Positions 1,137-22,100 of a DNA stretch of 23,568 nt are shown here, piece after piece. The notes beneath the pieces are model-generated. The model ran no database searches. It had not been told where the DNA came from and saw only the letters and a program-made list of their open reading frames with translations. Within the stretch, counting starts at the first letter, position 1, and each line of letters starts with the position of its first letter. Source of the DNA: a virus; IMG/VR virus record IMGVR_UViG_3300042556_001817, positions 1-23,568 of that record; one strand, written 5' to 3'. The position numbers were made by a program, and so were the translations under genes.

Positions 1137-1910
1137 TTAAGAAAATATTTGAGGGCCTAATTGATGGGCTTTATTAAATGGTATTAAGATTTTTTTAGCG
1201 TAAGCTTGAAACTGAGATTCTATACTTTGTGTATCAACGGCCGTTAATGATAATTCATATCTTTCTTTAGATTCTAATGTATCATATTCAGGAAAAATTT
1301 CTTTTAAATATTGATAATGCATTGTTTGTGTGGGATGTGTATCATGTTCGTCTCTATCTTCATATTTTACATAATTAGATGCACCTTCAAAATTTTTAAG
1401 TTTCCAATCATCCATTGCTTCTTTTACATCTAATGTATCTTTTATATATGTGAAATATTTATTCATTAATTTATTTAATATATGTTCCTTTTCTAATACA
1501 ATATTATTCATAGATGTTAAAAATGTATGTTTAATATTTTTTAGAGTTAATATTTCTTTTATAGTTTTTACTGCTATATAAGTTTGATAAATACTCCATT
1601 CATCAGACCACATATTTTCTACAAAAGATTTTGATATAGATGTGTTCCAATAAATATTACCACCATGTTGCCAATTGTTTTTATCTCTGAATGAGAATCT
1701 ATCCATATTGGTAAACATAACAACCACATAATCATCTTCATTTAAAATATTACTAACTTCTATAAATCTATTCATTATAAATGTATTAGATGCACCACCT
1801 TGTCCATAGTTCATATATTCTTCAAAATTAGCACCCATATAATCTGCCCAAGTTGCAGTTACATATCCTGTATAACTACACCCAAATGTTATTAATCTCT
1901 TACCAACCAT
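1137..1910 (-). CDS. SGNH/GDSL-type hydrolase (copy 1 of 4)
   Basis: A 257-residue protein with the outline of an SGNH hydrolase or O-acetyltransferase. The nucleophile block is F-G-C-S-Y-T with Ser12, followed by a glycine-rich block Y-G-Q-G-G-A-S-N near 35-42, an F-T-N-M-D-R block with Asn68, and a C-terminal D-T-H-P-T with Asp190 and His192. These match blocks I, II, III and V, so the active site looks intact. I chose the ATG at 1910: the frame stays open to a TTG at 1928, but that start would deepen the overlap with the upstream gene from 11 to 29 bases. Family members remove or add acyl groups on glycans or lipids, so acetyl editing of a sugar is a reasonable guess. Substrate is unknown. 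No secretion signal is visible, which suggests action in the cytoplasm. Confidence 0.7.
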   Translation of the reverse strand: MVGKRLITFGCSYTGYVTATWADYMGANFEEYMNYGQGGASNTFIMNRFIEVSNILNEDDYVVVMFTNMDRFSFRDKNNWQHGGNIYWNTSISKSFVENMWSDEWSIYQTYIAVKTIKEILTLKNIKHTFLTSMNNIVLEKEHILNKLMNKYFTYIKDTLDVKEAMDDWKLKNFEGASNYVKYEDRDEHDTHPTQTMHYQYLKEIFPEYDTLESKERYELSLTAVDTQSIESQFQAYAKKILIPFNKAHQLGPQIFS

Positions 1911-2685
1911 TATTTTTAATTTTTTCAATTATAGAATTATAAACAATTTCATGACCTATATTTGATGTATGCATGGTTCCCATATCATCCGGATATTGTT
2001 GTGATAATTTCATAAAATCAACATCTACCATATTTTCATCATTAATATAACCATCAAAACCTCTGTCGTATGTTAAAAACAAATGTCGTATTCCTTTATT
2101 TTTCAAAAGTATATGTGACATCACCATCATTCCCATATCATATTGTCTTTGAATCTGGTCATCAAATATATTTAAATAATAATCTTTAAGTAATTTCATT
2201 TTATCATTACCTTCATCATCAAAGCGGGCATAATAATTAGATTGCCAGTTAGGATTATCCATACAATTATCAACATAATCTATTATACTATTAAAATTTT
2301 CAGTTAATAATTTTCCATTATAATTTTTGTCATTTTGCATTGGGTTGAGTATGGTATATTTATAACTATCTTTACCATATGGTGGATATTCGTGATAGTT
2401 TACATCCGTATTTTTAATTTCTCCAACAAAATCGTATCCTTCTTTAAACCACTCCGTTCTATTATATGTGGTTACACCTATACACATTAAATCTATATTA
2501 GATATGTTTTCCAATGCATATTTTACTTGTAAAGATATTGAAAAATTTGAACTGGAACCTTTAGCTAAATTTATTAAATTTTTATTTAAATTTGATGCTA
2601 ATAAACTACCATATGGTTCTTTTTCTAAATTATGACACCCTATTCCAATATTAAAGGAATCACCACATATAACTAAATTATTCAT
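1900..2685 (-). CDS. SGNH/GDSL-type hydrolase-like protein (copy 2 of 4)
   Basis: A 261-residue protein opening with I-C-G-D-S-F-N-I-G, a block I GDS motif with Ser10, followed by N-L-A-K-G-S-S-S-N (block II-like). The C-terminus has M-H-T-S-N-I-G-H-E, where His239 is the likely catalytic His. The acidic residue normally two or three positions before this His is absent, and the block III region reads V-T-T-Y-N-R, so the catalytic set is less canonical than in the neighbours. The ATG at 2685 overlaps the stop region of the upstream gene by 8 bases, which points to translational coupling. Fold family is fairly sure; activity may be altered or lost. Confidence 0.65.
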   Translation of the reverse strand: MNNLVICGDSFNIGIGCHNLEKEPYGSLLASNLNKNLINLAKGSSSNFSISLQVKYALENISNIDLMCIGVTTYNRTEWFKEGYDFVGEIKNTDVNYHEYPPYGKDSYKYTILNPMQNDKNYNGKLLTENFNSIIDYVDNCMDNPNWQSNYYARFDDEGNDKMKLLKDYYLNIFDDQIQRQYDMGMMVMSHILLKNKGIRHLFLTYDRGFDGYINDENMVDVDFMKLSQQYPDDMGTMHTSNIGHEIVYNSIIEKIKNNGW

Positions 2686-3559
2686 TTATAAGATTATTTT
2701 CTTTTATATAACTACATAATTCTTCTGCCCATATTTCGTGTGAGGATGGTGATGGGTGCCAACCACTATAAACATCTTGTTTATTATTTGATTCCATAAA
2801 ACTTTTAAATGTGTTATTAATTTTATTTTTTTTATAAAATCTAACATCATCTATCATGTTCCACATTGATAAATATTCTTGTTTATAATATTTTCTTTTA
2901 ATATCATGTGATGACTGATATGGGTGTAAGTTTAAATCTAATTTAGATATTTCATCGGCAATGTTTATATCAAACCATTCATTTGGAGATTTTCCTACAT
3001 TTTGATAAAAAGAATTAAAACACAACCAATTAATGTTATATGCTTTACAAAAATTTTGGAATTGTAAAATATTTGTAATGTGTCTTGGTAAGTACTCTTC
3101 TTTGTTCCAAAGATATTCTACATAGTAATCCCAAAATATTTTTTGATTTTCTATTTGTAAATTTGGTATAGAAGGCCATATTCTTAATTTTTGAGAATTA
3201 TTTTCATCTTTATACCAAAAAGAATTTCTTTCAGGAGATGACCAGCCAACCAATAAAAATAAATCATTTGTAGGTATTCCCTTTGAAATATAATTTGAAA
3301 TAACAAATGATATAATTCTATTTAATATAGTACCATTGTCATCTGCGGGCCATGCTAAATTTATTAAATTTGCATTTAATTTTTGTGCAAGGTGAGTTGG
3401 AAATATTTTTGATAATCTATAAGGTGTGTTCTCTTCAATCCAATCATATTCCCCCATATGTTTATCGATTGGTTGTGTTTTTATTATATTAGGGTCTACA
3501 ATTTCTGAACCGAATACCCAACTATCTCCATCACATATTATAGTTAATTTATTTTTCAT
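2678..3559 (-). CDS. SGNH/GDSL-type hydrolase (copy 3 of 4)
   Basis: At 293 residues, the longest of the four tandem SGNH proteins. Block I is C-D-G-D-S-W-V-F-G with Ser13; block II-like is N-L-A-W-P-A-D-D-N-G; a G-W-S-S-P-E-R-N segment corresponds to block III; and the C-terminus carries G-W-H-P-S-P-S-S-H-E-I-W-A-E-E-L with His268 as the likely catalytic His. The extra length lies between blocks III and V and is rich in aromatic residues, perhaps a substrate-binding insertion. Its ATG shares one base with the stop codon of copy 4 (TAATG), a reinitiation arrangement. Enzyme class follows from the motifs; substrate unknown. Confidence 0.7.
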   Translation of the reverse strand: MKNKLTIICDGDSWVFGSEIVDPNIIKTQPIDKHMGEYDWIEENTPYRLSKIFPTHLAQKLNANLINLAWPADDNGTILNRIISFVISNYISKGIPTNDLFLLVGWSSPERNSFWYKDENNSQKLRIWPSIPNLQIENQKIFWDYYVEYLWNKEEYLPRHITNILQFQNFCKAYNINWLCFNSFYQNVGKSPNEWFDINIADEISKLDLNLHPYQSSHDIKRKYYKQEYLSMWNMIDDVRFYKKNKINNTFKSFMESNNKQDVYSGWHPSPSSHEIWAEELCSYIKENNLINE

Positions 3560-4197
3560 TAAATTAATTTTTTATCGTTTATAAAATTAACCATTAAATA
3601 ATTTGCAAAATCTCTATGTCCTTTGAATGACCAATGGTTATCATTTATTTTATTATCAGTTGCAGTTTTAATATTTTCAAACGATGTCCATAAGTCAGTT
3701 ACTTCCCAAAATATACAATTACTAATTTTTTTAGAATATAAAAATTTTTCAATAAATTCATATCTAAAATTCGTTCTATCAACAAAAGATTGGTCATTTA
3801 CTAAATTTAAAAAATAAATAATATGTTCACCTTCTTCTTTACTAAATCCCAATCGTATCAACAAATCATATGCAGATGGAGTTACTGTTGTAAATCGTTG
3901 ATATAATGGTAAGTTTGTATTTTCATTATTTGGAATATCAAATCTATGATAAAAAGTTTTACCAATTATAACAACATCGTTTTCGGTTATTAAATGATGA
4001 TTTTCTAATATACTATCTATTATTCTGTCATTTGATAATGAACCATATCCAAAATTTACAAGTTCTAAATTTAATTTAGACGCAATAATTTCAGGCCAAT
4101 GAAAATCATCTAATTGTCTATACAATGTGGAATATTCGTCTTCTTCATGTGTTTTATTAAGTGTAAAAGAATCACCAAAAGTAAATAATTTATTCAT
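3559..4197 (-). CDS. SGNH/GDSL-type hydrolase (copy 4 of 4)
   Basis: A compact 212-residue SGNH protein. Block I is F-T-F-G-D-S-F-T with Ser10, block II-like is N-F-G-Y-G-S-L-S-N-D, block III lies around V-V-I-I-G-K-T-F-Y, and the C-terminus has N-D-N-H-W-S-F-K-G-H with Asp186 and His188. The first gene of the four in transcription order, it begins 3 bases after the paralogous glycosyltransferase-like pair. The four SGNH genes share only motif-level similarity, so they are old or separately acquired paralogues rather than recent duplicates. Confidence 0.7.
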   Translation of the reverse strand: MNKLFTFGDSFTLNKTHEEDEYSTLYRQLDDFHWPEIIASKLNLELVNFGYGSLSNDRIIDSILENHHLITENDVVIIGKTFYHRFDIPNNENTNLPLYQRFTTVTPSAYDLLIRLGFSKEEGEHIIYFLNLVNDQSFVDRTNFRYEFIEKFLYSKKISNCIFWEVTDLWTSFENIKTATDNKINDNHWSFKGHRDFANYLMVNFINDKKLI

Positions 4198-4200
4198 ATA

Positions 4201-5070
4201 TTATATTTTACCAAAAGAAGAACCATACCAATCCATTGATAATTGTTTAATTTCTTCCCAATCTTCCATACTATGTAAGTTTTTGTCTTCTGCAGCTTTT
4301 CTAACTAAATAATAATTGGTGGTATGTTCACCCTTTGGATGTATATTCCAATTTACTAAATGTTTATATAATGTAGTTCCAGGTCCATAATAAAATTCTG
4401 GACCATCCATAATTTCAAATGAATTTAATTTAGTAAAATCATTATAAATAACTTTATGTTGCCAACGATATGCCTGTGCAATTATATCCATAGTTGGTGA
4501 ATCTGAATAAAAAAAGATGTCATCAAATGATATGTAATTAAATTCTCTTGTAAATCTTGGTAAATATGATGAAGATGCATATGCAACAAATGGTTCTGTT
4601 GGGTGTATATAAAACTTATTGGTCATTACTCCAAATTTATTTTCCTCATCTAATGGAAAATTTAAATCAAATCTACCCTTTATCACCAAATCGTAAACAA
4701 ATTCATTTTCTATTTCATATTTTCTTTTTAAGAAAACACTTTTCATAAAACTATAAAAAAGTGGAGACCAGGCGTTTGTAAATTTATCCTTTTCAAAATG
4801 TTCAAACTCCATTAAAACAGGATTAAATGCATTTTGAATTGCCAATCTATCATTATCATCCAATGTGTAAATTGTAGATTCTTCTCTTTGTGTTGCATCA
4901 CTTTCTCTATAAGAATTTATGTCCCAAGTATGAATAAAAAAATCAACCTTAACACGTTGTTTTGTATTGTTGTTTATTTTTATATCAAAATAGTTTAATA
5001 TGTTTTCTACTGCATTTTTCCAAGTTCTTGATTGACCCGATAAACATACTGCAACTCTAAATGTTTTCAT
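4201..5070 (-). CDS. Glycosyltransferase-like protein (SGQ-R / HTWD family), copy A
   Basis: A 289-residue protein with an N-terminal V-A-V-C-L-S-G-Q-S-R-T-W at 6-17, then D-F-F-I-H-T-W-D at 43-50, a central I-K-G-R-F-D-L-N-F around 130-137, and D-D-I-F-F-Y-S-D-S near 183-191. I recognise this arrangement from uncharacterised glycosyltransferase-like proteins in phage and bacterial surface-glycan clusters; R-F-D at 133-135 is in the place of a metal/nucleotide-binding DxD-like motif. It is a diverged paralogue of the adjacent upstream gene: both share the S-G-x start, H-T-W-D, a segment ending L-K-R-x-Y-E, and an F-F-x-x-S/N-S patch. The start shares one base with its upstream neighbour's stop. 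Enzyme type is moderately supported; sugar unknown. Confidence 0.55.
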   Translation of the reverse strand: MKTFRVAVCLSGQSRTWKNAVENILNYFDIKINNNTKQRVKVDFFIHTWDINSYRESDATQREESTIYTLDDNDRLAIQNAFNPVLMEFEHFEKDKFTNAWSPLFYSFMKSVFLKRKYEIENEFVYDLVIKGRFDLNFPLDEENKFGVMTNKFYIHPTEPFVAYASSSYLPRFTREFNYISFDDIFFYSDSPTMDIIAQAYRWQHKVIYNDFTKLNSFEIMDGPEFYYGPGTTLYKHLVNWNIHPKGEHTTNYYLVRKAAEDKNLHSMEDWEEIKQLSMDWYGSSFGKI

Positions 5071-5822
5071 TATATCAAATTTAGTTTTGGTTCAATTGGA
5101 ATATTTAATCTTTTTATTTTTATATCAAACATCCTTAAAAAAAATCCGAAAATTAATTCATTGGATGTGTTTTTATTAAAGTGTGTCTCATTTAACATTG
5201 GTAACATATTATACATGGATGTTATTATATCAAATGTGTGTGAATTTGCAAAAAAGAAATTATAGTCAATTTTATCGTATGGAAAAACAAAAGTCTTAAT
5301 TGCAGACGCGGTATAAATAGTTTTATTATCAGGTATACAAAATTGGTCTGTTATTAAATTATAAATAATAGTGTCAAGTTGTACATCTGTGGTCATTCCG
5401 ATACAAACATCGTATTCGAAATTATTAGTTAGTTCATATTCTCTTTTTAAATGTGCAGACATCATTAAACTATATAATTCAGGCCCGTATTTTGATATTA
5501 GACAATTTTGTGCATTATCTTTTGCAAAGTTCTTTCTAAGTTCATTTAAATGAGATTCTCTACTATTATATTTTTCAAAGTTATCTATTATTATTGATTT
5601 TGGTTTAATAAAATTTTTAAAATCCAATAGTGAAGAGTTGTCAATACTTTGGGTTTGATTATGTTTAATATCAAAATCCCAAGTATGAACAAAAACATCA
5701 AATGATGATGTTTCATTTGAAAACTGTGATAATGCGTTTAACTTAAAAAACAAATTTATCCAACTTTGGTATTTGCTTTGCCAATTATTTAAATGTCCTG
5801 ATATACAAACTGCTAATTTCAT
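5070..5822 (-). CDS. Glycosyltransferase-like protein (SGQ-R / HTWD family), copy B
   Basis: A 250-residue paralogue of the following gene. It has L-A-V-C-I-S-G-H-L-N-N-W at the N-terminus, V-F-V-H-T-W-D at 43-49, then L-M-M-S-A-H-L-K-R-E-Y-E and Y-D-V-C-I-G-M-T-T-D in the positions where copy A has its M-K-S-V-F-L-K-R-K-Y-E and R-F-D motif. Copy B has lost the Arg of S-G-Q-S-R and of R-F-D, and it lacks the last part of copy A. This suggests a changed donor, a non-catalytic partner, or decay. The ATG is 1 base after the LamG protein's stop. It is probably cytoplasmic, as no signal peptide is seen. Confidence 0.5.
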   Translation of the reverse strand: MKLAVCISGHLNNWQSKYQSWINLFFKLNALSQFSNETSSFDVFVHTWDFDIKHNQTQSIDNSSLLDFKNFIKPKSIIIDNFEKYNSRESHLNELRKNFAKDNAQNCLISKYGPELYSLMMSAHLKREYELTNNFEYDVCIGMTTDVQLDTIIYNLITDQFCIPDNKTIYTASAIKTFVFPYDKIDYNFFFANSHTFDIITSMYNMLPMLNETHFNKNTSNELIFGFFLRMFDIKIKRLNIPIEPKLNLI

Positions 5823-5823
5823 T

Positions 5824-6570
5824 TTAAAAATAAATGTTGTTTTCTATATAAAATTGAAAATAATTACCTATACCTGTCATATCCCATATTTTATATTGAG
5901 TTGAATTTTTAAAATCACAAAATATTTTATATTTGTCTTTGTATGGTATATCTTTACTCAATATAGGTAATCCTTGAAATGTATCCGTTTCTAAATATTT
6001 ATTTTCATAATTATTTTTTGCATAGACAACATCTGTAATCTTTAATTTTTTATTTAATGCAAATAATAATTTATATTCAAATGAACCAATATTTTTATAT
6101 TCATCTTCGGTAATCATATTACCACACCCTAACCATATTAAAGAATCCGTATATGGTAGTTTTTTCATATCTTTATATTCTATAAAAGAAACATGGTTGT
6201 CATTTATATATAAATTAATAATTGAATTGGCATCATCACATATTATTGTGTATTCATTAAATTCATTTTCTAAATCATCTGGTAAGGTATAGGTTGTGTT
6301 CTTAGAAATAATTTCTTCATTGGAATCAAAAAACCAATAATTTAATTGAATCATTACATTTCCATCATCATTTAGTATTGCAGAAAGTCCACAATGTCTA
6401 CCATTTCTTGCAAAAAAATATGAAGGATTTTCTTTCATTATGGATTCTTTTATAATTTTTGCACTCACAAAAATAGTAAAATCATTTTCCATAAAATCAT
6501 CAATTCGTTTTGATGTTTCATATCTTCCAACTGGAAGAATACAAAATATATTATCTTTATTAACTATCAT
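5824..6570 (-). CDS. Free-standing LamG/concanavalin-like domain protein
   Basis: A 248-residue protein whose middle reads as a LamG/ConA-like beta-sandwich: a strand F-T-I-F-V-S-A-K-I near 31-39, then N-x-S-Y-F-F-A-R-N-G-R, Y-T-I-I-C-D-D-A-N-S-I-I-N-L-Y-I-N-D, and S-L-I-W-L-G-C-G-N. The tail has I-F-C-D-F followed by Y-K-I-W-D-M-T-G-I-G-N, the same layout as the D-x-x-x...N-L-M-D-L-S-G-N-K-N region closing the LamG domain of the GT7 protein at 9434-10855. There is no catalytic motif or secretion signal. Such domains bind sugars or form trimeric virion parts. It lies in the glycan gene train with 1-3 base gaps. Possible roles are a carbohydrate-binding helper or a small structural protein. 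Confidence 0.5.
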   Translation of the reverse strand: MIVNKDNIFCILPVGRYETSKRIDDFMENDFTIFVSAKIIKESIMKENPSYFFARNGRHCGLSAILNDDGNVMIQLNYWFFDSNEEIISKNTTYTLPDDLENEFNEYTIICDDANSIINLYINDNHVSFIEYKDMKKLPYTDSLIWLGCGNMITEDEYKNIGSFEYKLLFALNKKLKITDVVYAKNNYENKYLETDTFQGLPILSKDIPYKDKYKIFCDFKNSTQYKIWDMTGIGNYFQFYIENNIYF

Positions 6571-6573
6571 AAA

Positions 6574-7989
6574 TTACATTTGTATATTTTTACAAAAATT
6601 ATAAAATTCTTCCAATTCAGGAAATGTTTTACAAAAATTAGTTCCTCTTCTAATATCATGGTTAGAAAAATATTGATAAAAATTATATCTGTTTTTCATT
6701 TGTTGTTCTATATCTTGTGGTGAAATCATCCAATCATAGATTCTTTTCACTTTTTGTACTTCCACATCACTATATCCAATATATTCCGGTGTGAATGATG
6801 GGGATGCATAATAGGTTATTAATTTGGATTGTTCTAAAATATATTTAGAAAAATCATATGGTAAAATTTGAACAGTTTGATGTTGTGGATGTCTTAAGTA
6901 AGATGAATCTAAAAATGTTGCAGAATTCCAATATCTATCGGTTGAACCATATTCTCTTTTTAAATTATAAACTTCAGTAATTAACTTATTATAATTAAAT
7001 AAACTTAATGCATTATATGTAGACATAAAAGTTATATTAGTTCTTTTTAATGAACCTAATATTTTATTTACATTGTCCCAAAAACGATTAAATTCTAATC
7101 CTGTTCTAATATATTCAGCTTGTTCTCCCCATGTATCAGTAGATGTAAAAATTACAATTTCTTTAACTCTACCCTCATCTTCTATTTTTTTAAGTTTTTT
7201 TATAAATTTCTCTATTAAATTATCAGGTGCACCTAAGTTTGAATTGATGGCCAATTTTAATTCTTTATTTGGATTTTTATTTTCAATTATAAAATCCAAC
7301 ACACCCCAAGTGTCTTTAGATAACAATGGTTCTCCTCCGGTAATTCTAAATGTATGTAAATCTCTATATAAATCCGGCCACCATTTCCAAAATGCTTCTA
7401 CATATGGATTATATTGACTATGTGGAATTGGAAATTTATCTTCTGCCTTTAACCAGTTGTCACCATTAAATCCATCTAATGTTGGGTATGCACCAAATTT
7501 GTTTATTTCTTCAACCCACTTAGAACTATATGCAGGGCCACAATATGAACATTTAAAATTACATGCATTTGAGAATGCAACTTCTACATATTTTGGATTA
7601 TAATCTTCTCTCCAATTTGAATTAAATATTTCCTCTTTGAATGGAAGAGACCAACTTTCTCCCGATTTAAAAATTCTATCACTAAATCTATCCGAATTAT
7701 CTTCCACATTCCAACAATAATCACATTCGGTAGGCCTTGCTCCACTCAACATCTCTTTTCTACGAAGTTTTTTATATCGTGTATTATGAAGTGCAGAAGG
7801 ATTTCGTGCAATCTCCATTTCTGATATTTTATGAGTTCGTGGGTGGTGACATGAATGATTGTGGCCACTTTGTAATTGTAAAGTTACTTGTGTCCATTTT
7901 GCAAGACACATTCCAGGTCCCACTTGATTTAAATCTTCTTTTACTTTAACATAAAATGGATTATCAAAATTGCCGTTATCTTCTGCCAT
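6574..7989 (-). CDS. Twitch-type radical SAM protein
   Basis: A 471-residue radical S-adenosylmethionine enzyme. The [4Fe-4S] cluster motif is C-N-F-K-C-S-Y-C, with Cys143, Cys147 and Cys150 (CX3CX2C), followed by G-G-E-P-L-L at 218-223, the SAM-binding motif. Extra cysteines at 28, 47, 89 and 92 precede the core; the pattern G-M-C-L-A-K-W-T...S-C-H-H and E-C-D-Y-C-W resembles the N-terminal part of twitch-domain radical SAM proteins (shortened SPASM-like auxiliary cluster region). Such proteins are frequent in phage and bacterial surface-polysaccharide clusters, with mostly unknown substrates. Here it sits between a LamG protein and the GT7-LamG proteins, so action on a sugar or on a modified protein is likely. 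Radical SAM class is nearly certain; reaction unknown. Confidence 0.88.
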   Translation of the reverse strand: MAEDNGNFDNPFYVKVKEDLNQVGPGMCLAKWTQVTLQLQSGHNHSCHHPRTHKISEMEIARNPSALHNTRYKKLRRKEMLSGARPTECDYCWNVEDNSDRFSDRIFKSGESWSLPFKEEIFNSNWREDYNPKYVEVAFSNACNFKCSYCGPAYSSKWVEEINKFGAYPTLDGFNGDNWLKAEDKFPIPHSQYNPYVEAFWKWWPDLYRDLHTFRITGGEPLLSKDTWGVLDFIIENKNPNKELKLAINSNLGAPDNLIEKFIKKLKKIEDEGRVKEIVIFTSTDTWGEQAEYIRTGLEFNRFWDNVNKILGSLKRTNITFMSTYNALSLFNYNKLITEVYNLKREYGSTDRYWNSATFLDSSYLRHPQHQTVQILPYDFSKYILEQSKLITYYASPSFTPEYIGYSDVEVQKVKRIYDWMISPQDIEQQMKNRYNFYQYFSNHDIRRGTNFCKTFPELEEFYNFCKNIQM

Positions 7990-7991
7990 AA

Positions 7992-9437
7992 TTACGATTT
8001 TACGTTTATAAGTTTATGTTTGTCAAATATTGTATCAGTATTAATATATGTATATTTCATATTATTTATACCATCATTTTTATAATTAATATTCCCTTGT
8101 TGCATTTCTAATATGTATCTTTTTTCATTTTTTGCTGTGGTGTCTCCTTTTGCCCATTTATCAATTCCACCAACATTTATTAAACCCTCAGTTTGATGTG
8201 GTAAACATTTAAATTTACCATCACGTCTATGTGGTAATATGGTATGTGGTATTATTATATCTTCATTTTCAAAAGAAACATTTTTAATATTAAATTGTGT
8301 ATTTTCTACATTGTTTTTAATTTTATTATTTGCAAATGATAAATCAAATATCATTCCATTTTCTATATTATTTTTATGCAATGATTTTATCTCATTTGGA
8401 GTTAAACATCTATCCCACATTTTTATTTTAGATATATTTCCTTTAAAATATTTAGAATTAGTATCACTTTGAGTTGGTGAATATCCTATATAAAAATCTT
8501 CCATTCCATATCTTTTTAATGGTTCTTCAAAAATTAATGGTGATAGAGTTCCAGTTCCTAATCTTGCATCACTTTCTCTACCATTTAAATAAAAATGTAT
8601 TTTTTTATTTACTGTATCAACTGACATGGTTACCCAGCTCCATTGGTTTTCATATCTTTTAATCCATTGATATAGATGTTGTTTTTTTCTATCCCATAAC
8701 ATGGCAGTATATGCTCTACTATTATTAAACGATATACCCCAATCAAAACCTGGTTTTCTAAGAATTGGATATTCACAAAACCTTCTTTCGGTGTCACCAA
8801 TCAAATAAATAGGAACCTTTTCTATCTGTTGTTCTGCTTTTACTAATATAGAAACAGTATGAGAGTTTGATATAGCATTTCTTAATTTAATATTAACTGG
8901 AAATGATATTTTTGAATTTTTACCATTGAAATATCCAGTTGTATCATTTTCGTTATAATCTAATTTGGTTTTTTCGACATATCCTTCCATTACACATCTC
9001 CAAAATAGGTCATCGTCTTCCATTCCCCAATCCCAATAATCATTCGAATAACCATTGGTTTTTTCTACTTGCTCTTTTGAGAATATAACTGCTCCACCAA
9101 AGTATTCCTCATACTTTAATTGATAATCAGATTGTGAAATACGAACCGCAATGTGTTGAGGGTTATCAATTGGAAATGAATAATCACAACTATCATCTTC
9201 AGGCACCATATCAATATCATGCCAAACGATATAATCACATCCATCATCAAATGCGTATTTTGCGGCAATGTTCTTCATTAAACCTCTATTAAAAAGTTTA
9301 TCATCACATTGGTGTGCCAAATAAATGGTATGTTCTATTCCTCTTTCTGTTAAGAATTTTGAAACATGTGGAACGAACACTTTCATATGTTCTTCTCTAT
9401 TTCGATATGGTACGCATACTCCTAATTTGTGGTTCAT
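7992..9437 (-). CDS. GT7 galactosyltransferase-like protein with inserted LamG domain, copy 1
   Basis: A 481-residue protein. The N-terminal 155 residues match beta-1,4-galactosyltransferase (GT7) motifs: V-P-Y-R-N-R-E-E-H at 9-17, F-N-R-G at 49-52, the metal-binding H-D-I-D-M-V-P at 73-79, Y-F-G-G at 112-115, and W-D-W-G-M-E-D-D-D-L at 135-144. Residues about 165-395 form a LamG-like beta-sandwich (I-H-F-Y-L-N-G, K-Y-F-K-G-N-I-S-K-I-K-M-W-D-R). GT7 sequence then resumes: L-P-H-R-R-D at 401-406 matches the I-R-H-S-R-D segment of B4GalT1, whose His binds metal, and N-D-G-I-N-N-M-K-Y at 454-462 matches the D-G-L-N-S-L-x-Y end motif. The lectin domain is therefore inside the catalytic domain. 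The start overlaps the copy 2 stop by ATGA. Sugar transfer is likely; donor and acceptor unknown. Confidence 0.8.
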   Translation of the reverse strand: MNHKLGVCVPYRNREEHMKVFVPHVSKFLTERGIEHTIYLAHQCDDKLFNRGLMKNIAAKYAFDDGCDYIVWHDIDMVPEDDSCDYSFPIDNPQHIAVRISQSDYQLKYEEYFGGAVIFSKEQVEKTNGYSNDYWDWGMEDDDLFWRCVMEGYVEKTKLDYNENDTTGYFNGKNSKISFPVNIKLRNAISNSHTVSILVKAEQQIEKVPIYLIGDTERRFCEYPILRKPGFDWGISFNNSRAYTAMLWDRKKQHLYQWIKRYENQWSWVTMSVDTVNKKIHFYLNGRESDARLGTGTLSPLIFEEPLKRYGMEDFYIGYSPTQSDTNSKYFKGNISKIKMWDRCLTPNEIKSLHKNNIENGMIFDLSFANNKIKNNVENTQFNIKNVSFENEDIIIPHTILPHRRDGKFKCLPHQTEGLINVGGIDKWAKGDTTAKNEKRYILEMQQGNINYKNDGINNMKYTYINTDTIFDKHKLINVKS

Positions 9438-10855
9438 ATTGATACTGTAATATGTGTTTGATTTCCTACTGTTGATTTACTTAACTCTTTAAATTCTAAA
9501 TTAGACAATCCGTCATGTTTTGTATTTTTATGACCAGGTGCAACTTCATTTATATATCGTAACTGATTATATCTGGTTGTTATATTTTTCCAAGAACCAT
9601 TTACGAAACCATTTTCTTCATGTGGTAATAATTCAAAAGTGCAATCTCTCCTATATGGTATATAAATTGGTTTAGTATCTTCTATTTGATATCCCACAAT
9701 TTCACAATTCATTATTTTTCCGTCATTTTTATTTCCACTTAAATCCATTAAATTATATGATTTTATGAATTTTGCATCATAATATAATTTTAAATAGTCG
9801 GCTGATTCGTAATCACCAAAATTTTGTGTTAAACCAAAAAATTTATTAGTTGATATTTCTCTAATCTCATCATCGTTCAATATAGTATTATATATTGCAA
9901 CCGAACTAATTAAACCTTGAAAATATTTGTTGTTATTATTTCTTTTTGGGTCACCTGCACCTAAATATAATTTTATTTGTCTTCTATAATTGTATACATT
10001 ATCTTTCATTATTTTTTTATCAACCAATTTACCATCTTGATACATTTTAATTTCTTTCGTATCTGGATTTATGGTGGCCACAATCGTAGTTTTATAGTTT
10101 GGTTTGATATCCGAATTTATATAATTAATACTTTCGGATTCATCGTATATTTCAAAATTGTATCTAGAATATGAATTAAAGTTGATATTTAAATCTAAAC
10201 CAGGAACACTTAATACGGAAAATGTATCGTCATATTCCTCAGTATTGCAATGGAGTTCATCTGGAAAAAATGATACAAAAATGGTAAAACAATCAACTGG
10301 TTGAATTACATTTTTACATTCAACATATGAATTATGGCCGTTGAATTTTAATGCAGCAGTGTTAGTTGCTGGTTGTTGGATTTCCTTTCTATTTAAATTT
10401 ACATTATGTTCTTTACATCTATGTAATAAATCATCATCTTCATATCCCCATCCCCAATATTCGTTAGAGTAACCATTTATTGCTTCAAATATAGAACTAG
10501 GGAACATTGTTACTCCACCAAAATATTCGTCAAACAAAATTCTATTAAAAGATTTGTCAATTGATATAAAATTTGATGCCAAATGTATAGGATAATTAGA
10601 ATAAGTATAGTCTGCATCTATTGGTATCATATCCACATCATGAAATACAACATAGTCACATTTTAGTTTTTTAGCATAAAAAAATCCTATATTTAATAGT
10701 TTTCCTCTATTAAATATTTTAGCATCATCTTGTTCAACAATAATTAATTCATAAGATATATCCGTATTGTTTAGATAATTTGATATAGCTCTTTTGAATA
10801 TTAGTAATTGTCTATCTCTAGCTCTATATGGAACTATGATACCTAATTTATTCAT
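9434..10855 (-). CDS. GT7 galactosyltransferase-like protein with inserted LamG domain, copy 2
   Basis: A 473-residue paralogue of the next gene with the same nested layout. GT7 N-terminal part: V-P-Y-R-A-R-D-R at 8-15, F-N-R-G at 48-51, H-D-V-D-M-I-P at 72-78, Y-F-G-G at 111-114, W-G-W-G-Y-E-D-D-D-L at 134-143. The LamG-like insert spans about 167-395 (L-K-F-N-G-H-N-S-Y-V, I-K-M-Y-Q-D-G-K-L, K-Y-F-Q-G-L-I-S-S-V-A-I-Y, M-D-L-S-G-N-K-N-D-G). GT7 then resumes with I-P-Y-R-R-D at 399-404 and H-D-G-L-S-N-L-E-F at 447-455, ending in an I-T-V-S-I strand as B4GalT ends in I-T-V-D-I. In the H-x-R-D position expected for the third metal ligand it has Tyr401, while copy 1 keeps His. Its stop and the next start overlap by 4 bases, so the two are probably made in equal amounts. 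Confidence 0.8.
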   Translation of the reverse strand: MNKLGIIVPYRARDRQLLIFKRAISNYLNNTDISYELIIVEQDDAKIFNRGKLLNIGFFYAKKLKCDYVVFHDVDMIPIDADYTYSNYPIHLASNFISIDKSFNRILFDEYFGGVTMFPSSIFEAINGYSNEYWGWGYEDDDLLHRCKEHNVNLNRKEIQQPATNTAALKFNGHNSYVECKNVIQPVDCFTIFVSFFPDELHCNTEEYDDTFSVLSVPGLDLNINFNSYSRYNFEIYDESESINYINSDIKPNYKTTIVATINPDTKEIKMYQDGKLVDKKIMKDNVYNYRRQIKLYLGAGDPKRNNNNKYFQGLISSVAIYNTILNDDEIREISTNKFFGLTQNFGDYESADYLKLYYDAKFIKSYNLMDLSGNKNDGKIMNCEIVGYQIEDTKPIYIPYRRDCTFELLPHEENGFVNGSWKNITTRYNQLRYINEVAPGHKNTKHDGLSNLEFKELSKSTVGNQTHITVSI

Positions 10856-10857
10856 TT

Positions 10858-11025
10858 TTATTTTTGAGCTGCTTTATGAAATTCAGTCAAATAATATTGA
10901 ATACGATTACTCCATTCATCTTTATCAATTTCTTCGAACCAAACGGTCAATGCGTCCAATGAATTTGCAATTTTTTCTAATGCTTTTACTTTTTTTGTTT
11001 CTAATAATAATTCTTCGTCAGTCAT
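10858..11025 (-). CDS. Small helical protein, 55 residues, unknown function
   Basis: An ATG at 11025 opens a 55-codon frame ending in TAA at 10858-10860. The protein is acidic and looks all-helical: an N-terminal L-L-L-E-T-K-K-V-K-A-L-E-K-I amphipathic helix, then W-F-E-E-I-D-K-D-E-W-S-N-R-I-Q-Y-Y-L, whose W-F-E-E-I-D-K-x-E-W pattern I associate with small proteins of marine T4-like phages. It begins after the largest gap in the train (48 bases, with a promoter-like element) and stops 2 bases before the GT7-LamG gene. Spacing and codon use support a real gene. It could be an adaptor for a neighbouring enzyme. I cannot assign a function. Confidence 0.65.
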   Translation of the reverse strand: MTDEELLLETKKVKALEKIANSLDALTVWFEEIDKDEWSNRIQYYLTEFHKAAQK

Positions 11026-11073: not shown

Positions 11074-11922
11074 TTATATGGATATTATTTTTTTAAATAA
11101 TTTATCCCATTGGCCATATTCTTTAAATCCATCATTTTCAATCATAAATTCTGGATTGGTAATATCAATTTGAAAATTGTTTCTTCTAATAGCTTGATAC
11201 ATTTTAAGATATTCATCCGAATAAGAATAGTCTTTTTTAATATCTGCTACCGATTTAATTCTTTCAAAACACGTGTTATCCCACTTGAAATGATGTACTT
11301 GAACATTGTAATAATGATAAGGTGCAATTAATGGGTGATTCCAACCTTGCCATCTCCAAGTAGTTTGGCCATCTATTTTTGCATAATGTTGACCAGGTGT
11401 AATTTCTATATAACCTTTCATTATACAAACTTTATTAGGACATGCACCACTCATTGGGTATCTAAAAAATCCTGATAATGGAAATTGTTTAAATATATCT
11501 ACATTATCTTTTATTTCAGGAAAAGTACCATCAATTCCAATTCTATCAACAAATCCACCTCTAACTAAATCCCAACCATTTACTTCACAATCTGCAATTA
11601 TTTCATTTAAATCAATTGAATAAATATGAAACTCATCATCATCTGCTACTACCCACCAATCTTCTGGATGCATTAATTTTGTTTCATTATATAATTGAGT
11701 AACATATTCCCAATTATATTTTTCTTTTATTTCTCTTCTTACTATTTTTGCATTTGGAAATTTGGAAACAATTTCTTGTACTGAATCATATGTAGAAAAG
11801 TTTTCCCACTCATATACTACAACAAAAATTTCATCAACAATTTCAGTATAGTGTGACAACATATGACCTAAAGTGTTTGTTCTACTTCCTGTTACTGTAA
11901 CTAATCTTATTTTTTTATTCAT
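11074..11922 (-). CDS. GT2-like glycosyltransferase
   Basis: A 282-residue protein resembling the Glyco_tranf_2_4/GT92-like group of GT-A enzymes: an N-terminal I-R-L-V-T-V-T-G-S-R strand, W-W-V-V-A-D-D-D-E-F at 89-98 giving the DxD metal and nucleotide-sugar site, and V-H-H-F-K-W-D at 209-215, a conserved C-terminal motif of this group. There is no membrane segment, so it acts as a soluble cytoplasmic enzyme. It lies 3 bases after the methyltransferase gene in the same train. Sugar transfer is well supported; donor and acceptor cannot be read from the sequence. Confidence 0.72.
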   Translation of the reverse strand: MNKKIRLVTVTGSRTNTLGHMLSHYTEIVDEIFVVVYEWENFSTYDSVQEIVSKFPNAKIVRREIKEKYNWEYVTQLYNETKLMHPEDWWVVADDDEFHIYSIDLNEIIADCEVNGWDLVRGGFVDRIGIDGTFPEIKDNVDIFKQFPLSGFFRYPMSGACPNKVCIMKGYIEITPGQHYAKIDGQTTWRWQGWNHPLIAPYHYYNVQVHHFKWDNTCFERIKSVADIKKDYSYSDEYLKMYQAIRRNNFQIDITNPEFMIENDGFKEYGQWDKLFKKIISI

Positions 11923-11925
11923 TTA

Positions 11926-12696
11926 TTATTTTCTAGTTAGCATTGCTAAACCAGTGCTAGCAACTTTTTTATCGAACATACGAAAATTTTTTAAATTTAC
12001 CAAATTCCACTCTTCATTTTTTTCTAATTCTTTAATAAATTTTGCAGGGCCATCAAAAGAAACAAAATCTTCCTTAGAATTTTCAGTAACAACAAATGTA
12101 TCATGATATGTTTGGTCAGTATCGTGTATGGTTATTATTCCATTTTCAGACATTATAGTTGAATATAATTCAAAATCCTTTTTAACTCCTTCATATGAAT
12201 GGTCTCCGTCAATGTGTAGATAATCAATTTTAATATCTTGTCTTATAAAATAATCATAAAAAGTTTTTTCAGAAGTTTCTAAAATAACTTGTGGTGAAAA
12301 ATGTTGTCTTAAAAAACTATTTTCTTCAGTCCAATCAGTAAACCCACCAACACCATTTGCAGCATCAATTACAATTGTAGTTCCAATATCACCCCACTCA
12401 GTTGAATTATTTCCTTCAAATATTTTTTGTTCCCATAAATCTTTTCTTGCTTGTGTCATTAATCTTGGAATAAATCCACCTCCTGACCCAATACAGACAC
12501 ATACCTTTGCTCTAATAAACTGAATGAAAGAGTATATCAAAAGTCCATCACCCAAATGTAAATCGGTTGCACCATGTGTCCAACGATATTTAACGGGTTC
12601 TAATATAGTATTTCCCTCATCATCAAATTTATGATTATTCGTAAGATATTCTTTTATTAATTTTTCGTTAAGTAGTTGCATATTTTGGTAACCCAT
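11926..12696 (-). CDS. Class I SAM-dependent methyltransferase (Methyltransf_24-like)
   Basis: A 256-residue Rossmann-fold methyltransferase. Motif I is C-I-G-S-G-G-G-F-I-P at 68-77; the acidic metal/substrate segment I-D-Y-L-H-I-D-G-D-H-S-Y-E-G is at 157-170; and G-I-I-T-I-H-D-T-D is at 186-194. The H-I-D-G-D-H-S-Y motif is typical of Methyltransf_24 and CmcI/macrocin-type O-methyltransferases that methylate sugars and small molecules, so methyl capping of a glycan is a good guess. The first ATG (12696) overlaps the upstream glycosyltransferase by 40 bases; a second ATG at 12681 would cut this to 25 bases. I keep the first because it sits behind an A-rich leader. Confidence 0.8.
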   Translation of the reverse strand: MGYQNMQLLNEKLIKEYLTNNHKFDDEGNTILEPVKYRWTHGATDLHLGDGLLIYSFIQFIRAKVCVCIGSGGGFIPRLMTQARKDLWEQKIFEGNNSTEWGDIGTTIVIDAANGVGGFTDWTEENSFLRQHFSPQVILETSEKTFYDYFIRQDIKIDYLHIDGDHSYEGVKKDFELYSTIMSENGIITIHDTDQTYHDTFVVTENSKEDFVSFDGPAKFIKELEKNEEWNLVNLKNFRMFDKKVASTGLAMLTRK

Positions 12697-13646: not shown

Positions 13647-14720
13647 TTAAATATCTTCATAATGTAAAAATAACTGAATTACGAATTGTCCTTCTTCACA
13701 TTCTAAAGGGTCTCTCCAATGTTCTAATATGTTTCCACTAACCAATGAAGCGTATCCTGTTTTTGTAGGATATTCTATTACATCTCCATTTTTCGTTTTT
13801 ACTTTCAAAGACCAATCTTTATTTATGTTTTCAAATATACATAATGATATTGTGTAATCCAATCCATCTCTATCGGTATGTGAATTTAATGTTGACCCAT
13901 TTTGATAAATTCTAATATATGGATTTGCATTTTTTATTTTTTTATTAACTATACCTTCAACAAATGGCCTAAATCTATCCATCAATTCCCATAGAAAAGG
14001 TAATATTGCACCATATGAATTATTATAGTATCTTTTATCCGTTTCTAATTGCATCAAACCACTATCTTTCGAATCTAATACGATTTTTTTATAAACTTCA
14101 CATTCAGAAGCTTCTAATAATTTAGAAAAATCAAAACAAATTGGTGTTATTTCTTTTTTTATTATTTTTTTCTCAAATGAAGTTTCTCTAACCCAAATTA
14201 TTGCAATCCATTTTGTTCCTGATGTTACAGGTAATCCGGCATGAAAACTATCATAATCCAAAGAACCATCTTCTTTTATATTTTTCCAAATTAATAATCT
14301 ACCAGTTTTTGGATTTATCTTTATATTTTTATTTATAAATTCAGTTTCTCCACCTTCAAAATCATCATTTAAATAAAATAAACAACTATAAACTCTTTGT
14401 CCTCCTGATTCTATTACTTTTGAATAATAATCGGTATTTGGATGAAAAAAATCATGATGCTTTTTATACTCACCACCAATATCATATTTTACTATATGTA
14501 TTTTCTCTTGGTTATCAATAGACATATTTGTCTCTTTGACAATGATATTTTTAATTTTATTTGTCAAAATCGTTTCATCAAATATCCAACAATTTTCTGC
14601 AGTTCTATAACCATCTATGTTTTCACCTAATGTGGAAGATTTTATTAGTTTATTAGAACCATTCTCAATAAGTTCTAAACACTCATCCATCGTCAAAATA
14701 TTATCTAAAATTTTTATCAT
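13647..14720 (-). CDS. Double 2-oxoglutarate/Fe(II) dioxygenase, prolyl 4-hydroxylase-like
   Basis: A 357-residue protein with two double-stranded beta-helix dioxygenase domains in tandem. Domain 1 (about 1-180) is prolyl 4-hydroxylase-like: iron ligands His88 and Asp90 in K-K-H-H-D-F-F, L-F-Y-L-N-D-D-F-E-G-G-E-T-E-F at 114-128, distal His160, and Lys170 in S-G-T-K-W as the likely 2-oxoglutarate anchor. Domain 2 (about 195-357) has I-Y-Q-N-G-S...S-H-T-D-R-D with His281 and Asp283, and distal His334 in L-E-H-W-R-D-P. Both metal sites look complete. P4H-type enzymes hydroxylate proline in Pro-rich proteins. The preceding gene, 10 bases upstream, encodes a long Pro-Thr linker, an obvious candidate substrate (inference). 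Other substrates, such as sugars, are possible. Confidence 0.85.
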   Translation of the reverse strand: MIKILDNILTMDECLELIENGSNKLIKSSTLGENIDGYRTAENCWIFDETILTNKIKNIIVKETNMSIDNQEKIHIVKYDIGGEYKKHHDFFHPNTDYYSKVIESGGQRVYSCLFYLNDDFEGGETEFINKNIKINPKTGRLLIWKNIKEDGSLDYDSFHAGLPVTSGTKWIAIIWVRETSFEKKIIKKEITPICFDFSKLLEASECEVYKKIVLDSKDSGLMQLETDKRYYNNSYGAILPFLWELMDRFRPFVEGIVNKKIKNANPYIRIYQNGSTLNSHTDRDGLDYTISLCIFENINKDWSLKVKTKNGDVIEYPTKTGYASLVSGNILEHWRDPLECEEGQFVIQLFLHYEDI

Positions 14721-14730
14721 AAATTAAATT

Positions 14731-15270
14731 TTAATTACATGCACAATTTGAATTTATATATGACCTAACTGCATAATTAGCGGTACCCGTATATGCAGTT
14801 CCATCCACCAATGAACAACATACTCCCGCGATTGTTATACCACCCAATGGTGGGTCTCCAGCCACCGCAATTGTATATAATGGAAAACTATATGCATTTG
14901 CACCCGTACATCTCACATAGTCGTAGTAATATACCGTAGGTGGTTCCGGTGTCGGCGTAGGTGTTGGTGTCGGTGTCGGCGTAGGTGTTGGTGTAGGCGG
15001 TGGTGGCTCCGGTGTTGGCGGAGGAGGTGTTGGTGGTGGCTCCGGTGTTGGCGGAGGAGGTGTTGGCGTAGGTGTTGGCGTAGGTGTTGGTGTAGGTGTT
15101 GGTGTTGGTGTAGGTGTTGGTGCAGCATGAGTGTATCCTAAAAACTCCTTCATCGAATCCGGTGCACTTTTCCCCGCAGCTGCAGAATACGTTCTTAATG
15201 AATTAGATGAAGAACCTAATTCGGTTTTGATTTGTGACATTTTTACTGGACCTGTTGATGGAATCGGCAT
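14731..15270 (-). CDS. Pro-Thr-rich fibre-tip/adhesin protein
   Basis: A 179-residue protein in three parts. Residues 1-50 carry a widespread phage structural N-terminus: I-P-S-T-G-P-V-K-M-S-Q-I-K-T-E-L-G, then Y-S-A-A-A-G-K-S-A-P-D-S-M-K-E-F-L-G-Y, seen in small tail-associated and adhesin proteins. Residues 51-111 are an almost pure Pro/Thr(/Glu) linker with (Pro-Thr)n runs and an 11-residue duplication. Residues 112-179 are a small Cys-containing domain (Cys121, 151, 152, 176, 178) rich in Gly, Ala, Tyr and Thr, probably the exposed receptor-binding end. Its ATG shares one base with the tail-fibre stop (TAATG), like a fibre/adhesin pair such as T4 gp37/gp38. Location in the virion is inferred. 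Confidence 0.7.
   Translation of the reverse strand: MPIPSTGPVKMSQIKTELGSSSNSLRTYSAAAGKSAPDSMKEFLGYTHAAPTPTPTPTPTPTPTPTPTPTPPPPTPEPPPTPPPPTPEPPPPTPTPTPTPTPTPTPTPEPPTVYYYDYVRCTGANAYSFPLYTIAVAGDPPLGGITIAGVCCSLVDGTAYTGTANYAVRSYINSNCACN
14938..15120. repeat. Hexanucleotide-type repeat tract coding the Pro-Thr linker
   Basis: A 183-base low-complexity tract made mainly of six-base units (GGTGTT, GGTGTA, GGTGTC, GGCGTA) on the plus strand, read on the minus strand as Pro-Thr codons. It contains a 33-base tandem duplication (15002-15034 and 15035-15067, differing only at the last base) coding an 11-residue Pro-rich unit. The tract is far richer in G+C than its surroundings. Units are multiples of three, so slippage would change linker length without breaking the frame. 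Confidence 0.85.
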
Positions 15271-18993: not shown

Positions 18994-19179
18994 ATGAAAT
19001 ACGCAATGTTACAAATCAAAAAAGAAACCCATGAACTTCTCAAAGAATATTGTGAAGAACACGGGTTTAAAATGGGTAGTCTAGTTGAAAATCTAATCAA
19101 GAAACACGTCGGTGTCTCAAAACCACAATCAAGTGTGTTGAAGGCTGATAAGGTAGTTCTTAGAAATCAATCTTACTAA
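18994..19179 (+). CDS. Small ribbon-helix-helix-like putative DNA-binding protein
   Basis: A 61-residue protein, the only plus-strand gene here. An M-L-Q-I-K-K-E-T strand at 5-12 is followed by two predicted helices, H-E-L-L-K-E-Y-C-E-E-H-G at 13-24 and M-G-S-L-V-E-N-L-I-K-K-H at 27-38. This beta-alpha-alpha layout with G-F-K-M-G-S-L-V between the helices resembles ribbon-helix-helix (Arc/MetJ-type) proteins. The C-terminal 20 residues are basic and probably flexible. It has no Shine-Dalgarno sequence, and its stop overlaps the convergent nuclease gene end by 20 bases. Divergent placement next to the late fibre promoter suggests a regulator, perhaps autoregulatory. Confidence 0.6.
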   Translation: MKYAMLQIKKETHELLKEYCEEHGFKMGSLVENLIKKHVGVSKPQSSVLKADKVVLRNQSY

Positions 19180-22100
19180 ATCCATTCTCTTTTTTAATTT
19201 CAATCAATCCGTCTACGATATCTCTCATTTGTTCTAAGTGAGAAATCATCCATATAAAATCAAATTGTGTTTTAAGATATTGCATCATCATAAATAAAGA
19301 TGATAAATTATCTGCATCCAATGTACCAAATCCTTCATCTACTACTAAGAAATTCGGACGAGGTAAATTACATACATTGATAAGTGCAACTCTAATAGCA
19401 AGTCCACTTACAAACTTCTCCATACCACTACACATCTCCAATGGCCATTCCTGGTCTTCATAAACAATCTTTGCATTAATAGATTTACCATCCATTTCCA
19501 TTGTGACACCGAAGTCTACAACTTGTGCAAGAATGTTATTGATTTCATTTTCAATTACCGGAAGTGCTTTACTAATTAACTCATATGGAATACCATCTCT
19601 CTTTACAGCATCTAAATAATAGGTGTATAATCGGTTCTTTTCTTCCAATTCCTTAACATCATTCATCTTTTGTTTTATACCTCCTATATAGGTCTCTAAT
19701 GATGAAATAGAACCATTTGTAGTTGCTATTTGTTTACTGATATCTTTAATGTCCGACTCAATTTTCTTTTTCTCTACTTCTAATTCTTTGATTTGTTTTT
19801 CCAAATCTTTATTAGATTGAATTGTTTCTTCGTTTTCAAAATATCTTTCAATATCTTCTTCTACTTTGTCCAATTGGGTTTCTAATAGTTCTTCTCTTGT
19901 AACCAATCCACTAAATTCTAAATAATAATTTTTATGAGTTGCTTTGGCTTTTTCTAATTTATTTTTTAAGTCGTTCCACTCATTATATTGTTCTTCTATA
20001 CCTTCCCATGTATCCAAAGTTTGTTGGATACCTGTACAATCAACCAGTGCTTCTCTAAGAATTTCTTTTAATTGAGGTAATGATTCCTTTACTCTCATTG
20101 CATCTTTTACAAAGGTATTATCACAACAAAACTTACAATTGGGGTCATATTCATGTTTATCCAAATGTGAAATCTTTTCTTCGGCTGAGGATAAATGTCT
20201 TTTTGCAATATCATAAACTCTTGTAGCTTCAATTAAAGCATTTTGTTCTCTTTGATAATTAGAATATACAACTTCTATATCAATACCATTAAATTGTTGT
20301 TTAGTTGTAATTGTATCCGTTAACTCAACCATTTTTTCGGTAATAGTAGTAATATTTGTGGTTTTATTCTGCATAATATCTTTATTTGCATCAATATCAC
20401 CTTTTAATTTTTCTCTACGTTCATTCAAATCATCAATATTCAAATTACCATCAATCGGAGTAAGGTTTCTACTCAAATCTAATATAACACTATCTAATCC
20501 ACCCTTATCACCATTCAATCTATTTAATTCGGTTTCTAATTCTTTTAATTCACCTTTCTTATCTTTCAACTCATTTGCTTTATCTGCAAGTTCCGTTGTA
20601 AAGTCGGTTTTCTTAAAGTTCTTAATCAATACTGAAACTTCTTTGATATCTTCGGTTGCAGTTTCGTATAATTTATCAAATACATTCAATCCCATAAATT
20701 GGGCAAGTAAGTCTTTCCTCTCACTTTGTGATTTATCAATGAATATAGAGTTATTACCTTGTAAAGATAATGTAGTCAATACAAAATCTTCATACTTACC
20801 AACATATTGTTCAATGACTTGATTTGTATCTCTTCTTTCAGTTCCATTCAAAGATACTTTCTCACCATCCATATCAATATACCAAAAGTTTACATCAACT
20901 TTTACATTCTTACCTTTGTTAATTGTTTTTGCAGTTCTTTCAATAAAGTAATCTACTCCGTTAACTTGGAAATTCAAATAACATCTAAAATCGGTCTTAC
21001 GATTATTTAAGATATTAGCAGCTTTGAATGCTCTACTACTTTTATCATAAAGACAAAATGAAATAGCATCAAAGATGGATGATTTACCTTGTGCATTAGG
21101 TGCGAATAATCCCATCAATCCATTTAACTTACTAAAATCAATTTTATTATCTTCACCATAACTAAACATATTAGAAAACTCAAATCTAATCGGTTTCCAC
21201 ATAATGTTTCTTAAAGTATCTTCATGTACAATTCTACTATTGACATCTCTATTAATATTTTCTAATTGTGCCAAATCTTTCTTATCAACGAATGGCATCA
21301 TTCTCTCTACATATTCATTGATTAAAGAGTTTTGATAATTGATGTCGGAAATATCTTCAAAGTCTAATTTATTTTGTCTATCTCCTGTTTTCTTTTTTGA
21401 TAATGAGTCCGTTCTAATAATTGTAAAATCCTCAACACCATATTTCATTTTGATTTCTGCAATTACCTTTTTAGTATCGGCAGTATCGGTGTTTGATAAT
21501 CTTACTCTTAAACGAGGATATTTTGGCATATCATTTACAACTGGAACTTTACCATTGTCGATATCCATTGTATAATAACCATAATCATTTTGAATATCAA
21601 TTTCTTCGTAAGACATTGTATCTAAATCCCACGCTAAGAAACCATGTCTACCTAATGTTTCACCAAAGTTTTGTTGAACCAATGAACCTGCATAAACTAC
21701 TTTACAACCTTTCGGACTTATCATTTCCTGACGCTTATGAATATCACCTAAAAGTGCTAAATCAAAACCATCAAATATATCCGTTGTAAAATGTCTACTA
21801 CTTACCACATATCCAATATCAGTTTGAGAATTATCAACAGGTCCGTGAAATAATGCAATCTTTTTATCACCAACCAATTTATCAGCAGTAATCCAATTGT
21901 CTTTGTTATCCAAAATTGAAAATACTGAAAAATCAACACCACCAATAGAAAATACCTGTGTATCTTTTAAATAATAAAAGTCTTTTAATTCCAATGCATC
22001 TACAATAGGAGTAAGAACATCCATTCTATCCATATTGTTCATATTACAATCGTGATTTCCGGTAATAAGAATTGTAGGACAAGTTTTAGCACACTCTTTG

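Follow-up and report, generated by a model that had tools for sequence, protein, structure and literature searches.

The window (the whole stretch of DNA analysed, a 23,568-base IMG/VR virus record) derives from an uncultured aquatic phage. Among its other genes are one for a DNA primase and one for a tail-fibre protein bearing an S74 chaperone domain, so that it is part of a large tailed phage. Judged by a fused exonuclease of 1048 aa, the nearest isolate relative is Microcystis phage Mel-JY01 (41.8% identity). Two adjacent ORFs on the minus strand, P1 (7992..9437, 481 aa) and P2 (9434..10855, 473 aa), overlap by 4 bases, the TGA of P2 running into the ATG of P1. We confirmed that both encode GT7 (beta-1,4-galactosyltransferase-like) proteins in which a Laminin_G_3/pentraxin-like beta-sandwich (LamG) of ~240 residues interrupts the catalytic domain.

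The genes surrounding this pair lie on the same strand. Directly upstream of P2 is a gene for a conserved, helical-looking small protein of 55 aa (10858..11025), which belongs to a family with the motif RKVKALEKIANSLDALTVWFEEIDKDEWS.RIQYYL.EFH and for whose function Pfam and PHROGs offered no match. It is preceded by genes for a GT2-like glycosyltransferase (11074..11922; PF13704, E 1.8e-4, which is below the gathering score) and a Methyltransf_24 methyltransferase (11926..12696; PF13578, E 1e-10). Downstream of P1 follow a twitch-domain radical SAM protein (N_Twi_rSAM, 6574..7989; NF033640, E 4e-101) and a stand-alone LamG-like protein of 248 aa (5824..6570), a homologue of the inserted LamG domain according to the lamG profile (E 3e-8) and the LamG tree.

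Several other minus-strand regions of the window are also of note. The 1048-aa protein (19160-22306) consists of an SbcD/gp47-like phosphoesterase joined to an SbcC/gp46-like ATPase, and it has a full-length relative in Mel-JY01. At 13647-15270 a long (PT)n/PPPTPE repeat protein adjoins a 2OG-Fe(II) oxygenase (prolyl-hydroxylase-like), the second half of which matches PHROG; this proximity suggests the repeat as a target of hydroxylation, and perhaps of glycosylation, by the cluster. The regions 1137-4197 and 4201-5822 contain runs of related-looking proteins with no function assigned: four whose GDS-like starts recall SGNH hydrolases, plus a homologue pair (phrog_13607).

The N-terminal GT7 piece of P1 (residues 1-158, 8964..9437) is matched by PF13733 (residues 2-86, E 7e-19, 68.2 bits) and PF02709 (residues 95-153, E 2e-19, 69.4 bits), and that of P2 (residues 1-160, 10376..10855) by the same two models (E 2.4e-19, 69.7 bits, and E 2.6e-19, 69.1 bits, respectively), all above the gathering cut-offs of 27 and 23 bits. 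When residues ~3-153 were compared with PDB sequences by phmmer, the matches were B4GalT7 and B4GalT1, with E values of 1e-31 to 1e-28 for P1 and of 1e-31 to 1e-22 across both proteins. The residue table for this piece of P1 gives the DxD motif (D74/D76), Y112, W137 and the xED residues E140/D141. The beta-sandwich comes next, at residues ~163-397 of P1 (8247..8951) and ~163-396 of P2 (9668..10369; boundaries set by alignment to P1). Laminin_G_3 scores 42.5 bits in P1 (residues 173-351, E 9.7e-11) and 44.5 bits in P2 (residues 215-331, E 2.4e-11), against a cut-off of 27.6 bits. In these two proteins the PF02709 match breaks off at position 60-67 of the 78-position profile, and in an insert-less viral GT7 it reaches position 77; such an early break is expected if an insert interrupts the GT7 domain.

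No Pfam model covers the last ~80 residues of P1 and P2. We used a profile built from the C-terminal pieces alone (gtC; A2), which in insert-less bacterial GT7s from GTDB genomes matched the segment directly after the N-terminal piece, with E values down to 2e-8; among 177,635 PDB sequences it matched the C-terminus of B4GalT1 weakly (E 0.4). Insert-bearing and insert-less GT7s have in common the pattern (R)R-x-G-x-F-x-x-L-x-H, followed by ...N...F/Y...DG(L/I)...Y/F. The C-terminal piece is thus, by sequence comparison and by the structural alignment of P1 described below, assigned to the GT7 fold; it spans residues ~398-481 in P1 (7995..8246; gtC and VIA-align to B4GalT1), with H414 (the C-His), N437 and D455-G456, and residues ~397-473 in P2 (9437..9667; alignment and gtC).

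The structure of P1 was predicted with AF2 from a 144-sequence alignment (pLDDT 94.3, pTM 0.88); a single-sequence prediction (pLDDT 34.5) was set aside. In VIA-align, residues 1..481 of the model superpose on residues 178..398 of bovine B4GalT1 over 217 residues (rmsd 2.0 A, Z 27.6), with the insert skipped. Residues about 162-397 resemble the LamG domain of PAPP-A (Z 21.5), 4dqa (20.8) and the pentraxins (~18), the overall range being 21.5-17. Strands of the model span residues 155-401, including continuous strands at 155-171 and 388-401. The nesting is accordingly seen in both sequence and model for P1, and is indicated for P2 by Pfam and the common alignment.

These results bear out an earlier note, made from the letters alone, which had placed both ORFs at the same coordinates and had read in them a LamG domain nested twice within a GT7 fold. 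The HMM search that it proposed yielded PF13733, PF02709 and Laminin_G_3 above their gathering scores in both proteins, and the superposition that it asked for gave, in P1, one continuous GT-A fold formed by the N- and C-terminal pieces around a LamG/pentraxin-like beta-sandwich. Its boundaries (about 1-155, 165-395 and 400-end) were correct to within a few residues, and the C-terminal motifs which it had attributed to GT7 have their equivalent in insert-less GT7s.

The insert-less enzymes served as an empty-site control. The gap between the N- and C-terminal pieces is mostly 1-8 aa (median about 3) in the insert-less bacterial GT7s with a scored C-terminal piece (n=55), and 207-264 aa (median 245) in insert-bearing viral ORFs (n=400), which rules out a domain order produced by chance adjacency. 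Insert-less viral GT7s exist as well, several of them with a gap of about 3 residues. Where the insert is lacking, the strand that follows the xED helix leads through a turn of a few residues into the R-x-G-x-F-x-x-L-x-H strand. Alignments and the P1 model agree that LamG replaces this hairpin turn, after the xED helix, ahead of the metal-binding C-His and just before the segment corresponding to the B4GalT1 lid. The conserved histidine, His414 of P1, is equivalent to His347 of bovine and His343 of human B4GalT1 and lies 13-16 residues after the turn. A placement of the metal ligand within 'PHRRD' was rejected, as alignment with insert-less GT7s puts it at His414 in 'KCLPH'; the 'RRD' segment is the strand leading to His414.

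In human B4GalT1 the lid comprises residues 338-365, with Met340 and His343 binding the metal (PMC6198961), and it starts just after the hairpin turn equivalent to the insertion point. The hypervariable regions HV2 and HV3, together with the sequences flanking xED, form the acceptor sites of GT-A enzymes including B4GALT1 (PMC7948508, PMC7185993). The suggestion of the earlier note that the insert lies near the acceptor side is thus upheld by position, and a site N-terminal to the lid is, by analogy, a plausible place for acceptor recognition. In this position LamG might, as the note proposed, link recognition of the acceptor with transfer or retain a growing chain.

The positions equivalent to bovine D252, D254, Y289, W314, E317, D318 and H347 are 98-100% conserved among P1-like (n=106) and P2-like (n=99) proteins. 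The Tyr289 equivalent is Tyr in 98%. According to the Qasba group, Tyr at this position is reportedly associated with the use of UDP-Gal rather than UDP-GalNAc, and the most likely donor of P1 and P2 would therefore be UDP-Gal. A third GT7-LamG clade, P3 (33 sequences), has R228 replaced by Tyr in 87% and keeps Trp314 in 33% and E317 in 36%; with its catalytic positions degraded, P3 is probably a pseudo-enzyme or catalyses a changed reaction. Examples occur in related phages (L021:1812-3257, L025:1784-3235 and L053:1856-3340). The window holds P1 and P2 as its only GT7-LamG genes, with no P3; since in relatives P3 lies immediately upstream of P2, separated from it by the small-protein gene, a copy beyond the window would be possible only if the gene had moved.

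Gene order recurs across 105 related loci as methyltransferase, GT2, (P3), small protein, P2, P1, twitch radical-SAM protein and LamG. The radical-SAM gene is present in 102/105, the GT2-like gene in 99/105, the methyltransferase gene in 87/105 and the small protein family in 97/105 of them (55-105 aa outside the window), and LamG profile matches corresponding to the solo LamG were obtained in most. The small protein precedes a GT7 start in 99 cases, with a median spacing of 0 bases, and in 97 of these the GT7 is P2. A gene for N_Twi_rSAM lies within 3.5 kb of 439 of the 485 insert-bearing viral ORFs, of none of the 49 insert-less viral and none of the 44 insert-less bacterial ones; the counts are not dereplicated, some of the loci being nearly identical, and the searches that supplied the related loci were seeded with the GT7-LamG family. 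Among the GT7s compared, radical-SAM adjacency is limited to the insert-bearing form. One ORF of 914 aa (L015:4175-6916) contains both P1 and the radical-SAM protein, either as a natural fusion or through a frame error, and is consistent with a functional link between the two.

The insert-bearing design is widespread in uncultured phages, with hundreds of copies on independent contigs. Its LamG domain has diverged more quickly than the GT part, with pairwise identities of 50% versus 78% in P1 and 34% versus 60% in P2. No conserved ligand site or shared ligand motif was identified in the LamG domain; the P1 clade has a conserved polar/aromatic run in this domain (Y223, R227, N238-R241, W258, R261, W266 and W268). 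In GT-core trees the insert-bearing sequences fall on one side of a branch with a support of 88, and for the first of these trees the constrained tree was the likelier (p-AU 0.87), so that the trees are compatible with one origin and are not strong proof of it. The LamG tree largely mirrors the P1, P2 and P3 clades, with the stand-alone LamG proteins as a separate clade and two divergent L105 sequences outside the expected clades. As judged from these sequences, the parsimonious and most likely history is a single insertion, after which duplications gave rise to P1 and P2 and, among relatives of this phage, to the degraded P3. Two copies were found in bacterial assemblies without a radical-SAM gene, one (L190:3950-5437) on a 66-kb contig with LRR-kinase, GT2 and ABC-transporter genes, the other (L189:409-1881) adjoining the same GT2-like gene. 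These cellular-looking copies may be bacterial acquisitions.

As to the activity, acceptor, LamG ligand and target of P1 and P2, we infer, with modest confidence, that the two are active GT7 galactosyltransferases, descended from a single insertion, in which the nested LamG selects the acceptor or a partner, and that they belong to a cassette that modifies a virion or surface component. They would be cytoplasmic, inverting and metal-dependent enzymes. Inserted immediately ahead of the substrate-controlled lid, LamG would offer a fixed surface for docking next to the acceptor groove and would in this way select either the acceptor, a glycan or glycoprotein specified by the phage, or another protein encoded in the same operon as a partner. 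The modification cassette would comprise P1 and P2, the small helical protein, the twitch radical-SAM protein, the stand-alone LamG, the GT2-like enzyme and the methyltransferase, and its target would probably be an adhesin of the virion or a surface glycan of the host. For comparable glycosyltransferase clusters in the host-recognition regions of pelagimyophages, the proposed role is to modify the host O-chain (PMC7029224); the roles listed for other large aquatic phages are modification of DNA, of serotype and of the virion (PMC12619734).

The faster evolution of LamG and the lack of a conserved ligand site also fit a mere spacer or scaffold. A less probable but serious alternative is that LamG acts as a scaffold or oligomerisation module, docking P1, P2, the solo LamG and the small protein (perhaps also the radical-SAM protein) and leaving the acceptor untouched. 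The strict linkage of the insert with the radical-SAM and small-protein genes, the homologous solo LamG two genes on, and the low identity of P2 LamG domains within their clade would all be accommodated in this way; however, docking does not require a position next to the lid, as a terminal fusion would do, and the polar/aromatic run of the P1 clade is typical of a ligand surface, although it might equally form an interface. We think it quite improbable that the GT7-LamG proteins are no longer enzymes and serve as binding or virion proteins with the GT-A fold as a second lectin. P3 paralogues have indeed lost W314, E317 and other residues, tail-fibre genes adjoin the cassette in this window, and phage virions commonly contain LamG proteins (BFVD matches), but the catalytic positions of P1 and P2, from the DxD to the C-His, are almost invariant and the neighbouring genes encode enzymes. 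It is hardly credible that the architecture is an artefact, arising from two neighbouring domains or a chimeric assembly together with chance similarity at the C-terminus. The missing Pfam model and the weak PDB match might speak for this reading, but the hundreds of independent copies, the in-register gtC matches and the confident P1 model refute it.

A bolder version of the galactosyltransferase reading, which we regard as unlikely, would see here a new class of phage glycosyltransferase system, in which tandem GT7s with a lid-nested lectin work with an obligatory twitch radical-SAM protein, a small helical protein and a free LamG. Such a system would install an unprecedented modification (a galactosylated, radical-SAM-modified peptide or glycan) on the virion or host, with LamG gating the lid through acceptor binding.

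The individual components are familiar. P1 shares with B4GalT1 and B4GalT7 (CAZy GT7) the GT-A fold, DxD, Trp loop, xED, C-His and DGL motif, at 30% identity over ~210-217 superposed residues; these animal enzymes are, however, Golgi type II membrane proteins with no inserted domain, whereas the phage proteins are predicted to be cytoplasmic and carry a LamG of ~240 aa just before the lid. The nearest relatives, the insert-less bacterial and viral GT7s (~220-260 aa), have the same core and the R-x-G-x-F-x-x-L-x-H hairpin motif, but a turn of a few residues in place of LamG and no radical-SAM neighbour. In polypeptide GalNAc-transferases (GT27) a C-terminal ricin-type lectin guides the choice of acceptor, so that a GT-A catalytic domain likewise works with a lectin domain; their lectin is, however, a beta-trefoil that is neither nested nor LamG, and their mechanism is retaining. 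In the phage protein, the ~80 residues after LamG complete the GT-A fold, unlike the GT27 layout, where the lectin follows a complete catalytic domain. GT7 and GT27 have been placed in one clade (PMC7185993). The same fold as in the insert occurs in the LamG of PAPP-A, BACOVA_03559 (4dqa) and the pentraxins (Z 18-21), but these are secreted or surface proteins and none is inserted in a glycosyltransferase. O-GlcNAc transferase has an Intervening domain lodged within its catalytic region and in this respect is similar, although its fold is GT-B and both the inserted domain and the site differ. We found no LamG- or lectin-inserted glycosyltransferase in the literature (open-licence papers), and INPHARED gave no match for P1, P2, the radical-SAM protein, the small protein or one insert-less viral GT7. 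Each ingredient (GT7 enzymes, LamG domains, glycosyltransferases of phages) is already known; judged by these sources, the nesting of LamG in the GT7 fold is new, although some other database may annotate it.

Of all the properties of GT-A enzymes, the choice of acceptor is the hardest to predict, and hypervariable loops are known to shape it. In the phage family a complete lectin-like domain occupies one such place, and it has persisted after duplication across hundreds of phage contigs. The insert-less relatives are natural controls, and the role of the insert is therefore testable by domain swaps. The linkage to the radical-SAM gene, in turn, provides a handle on a common, unexplained phage gene family.
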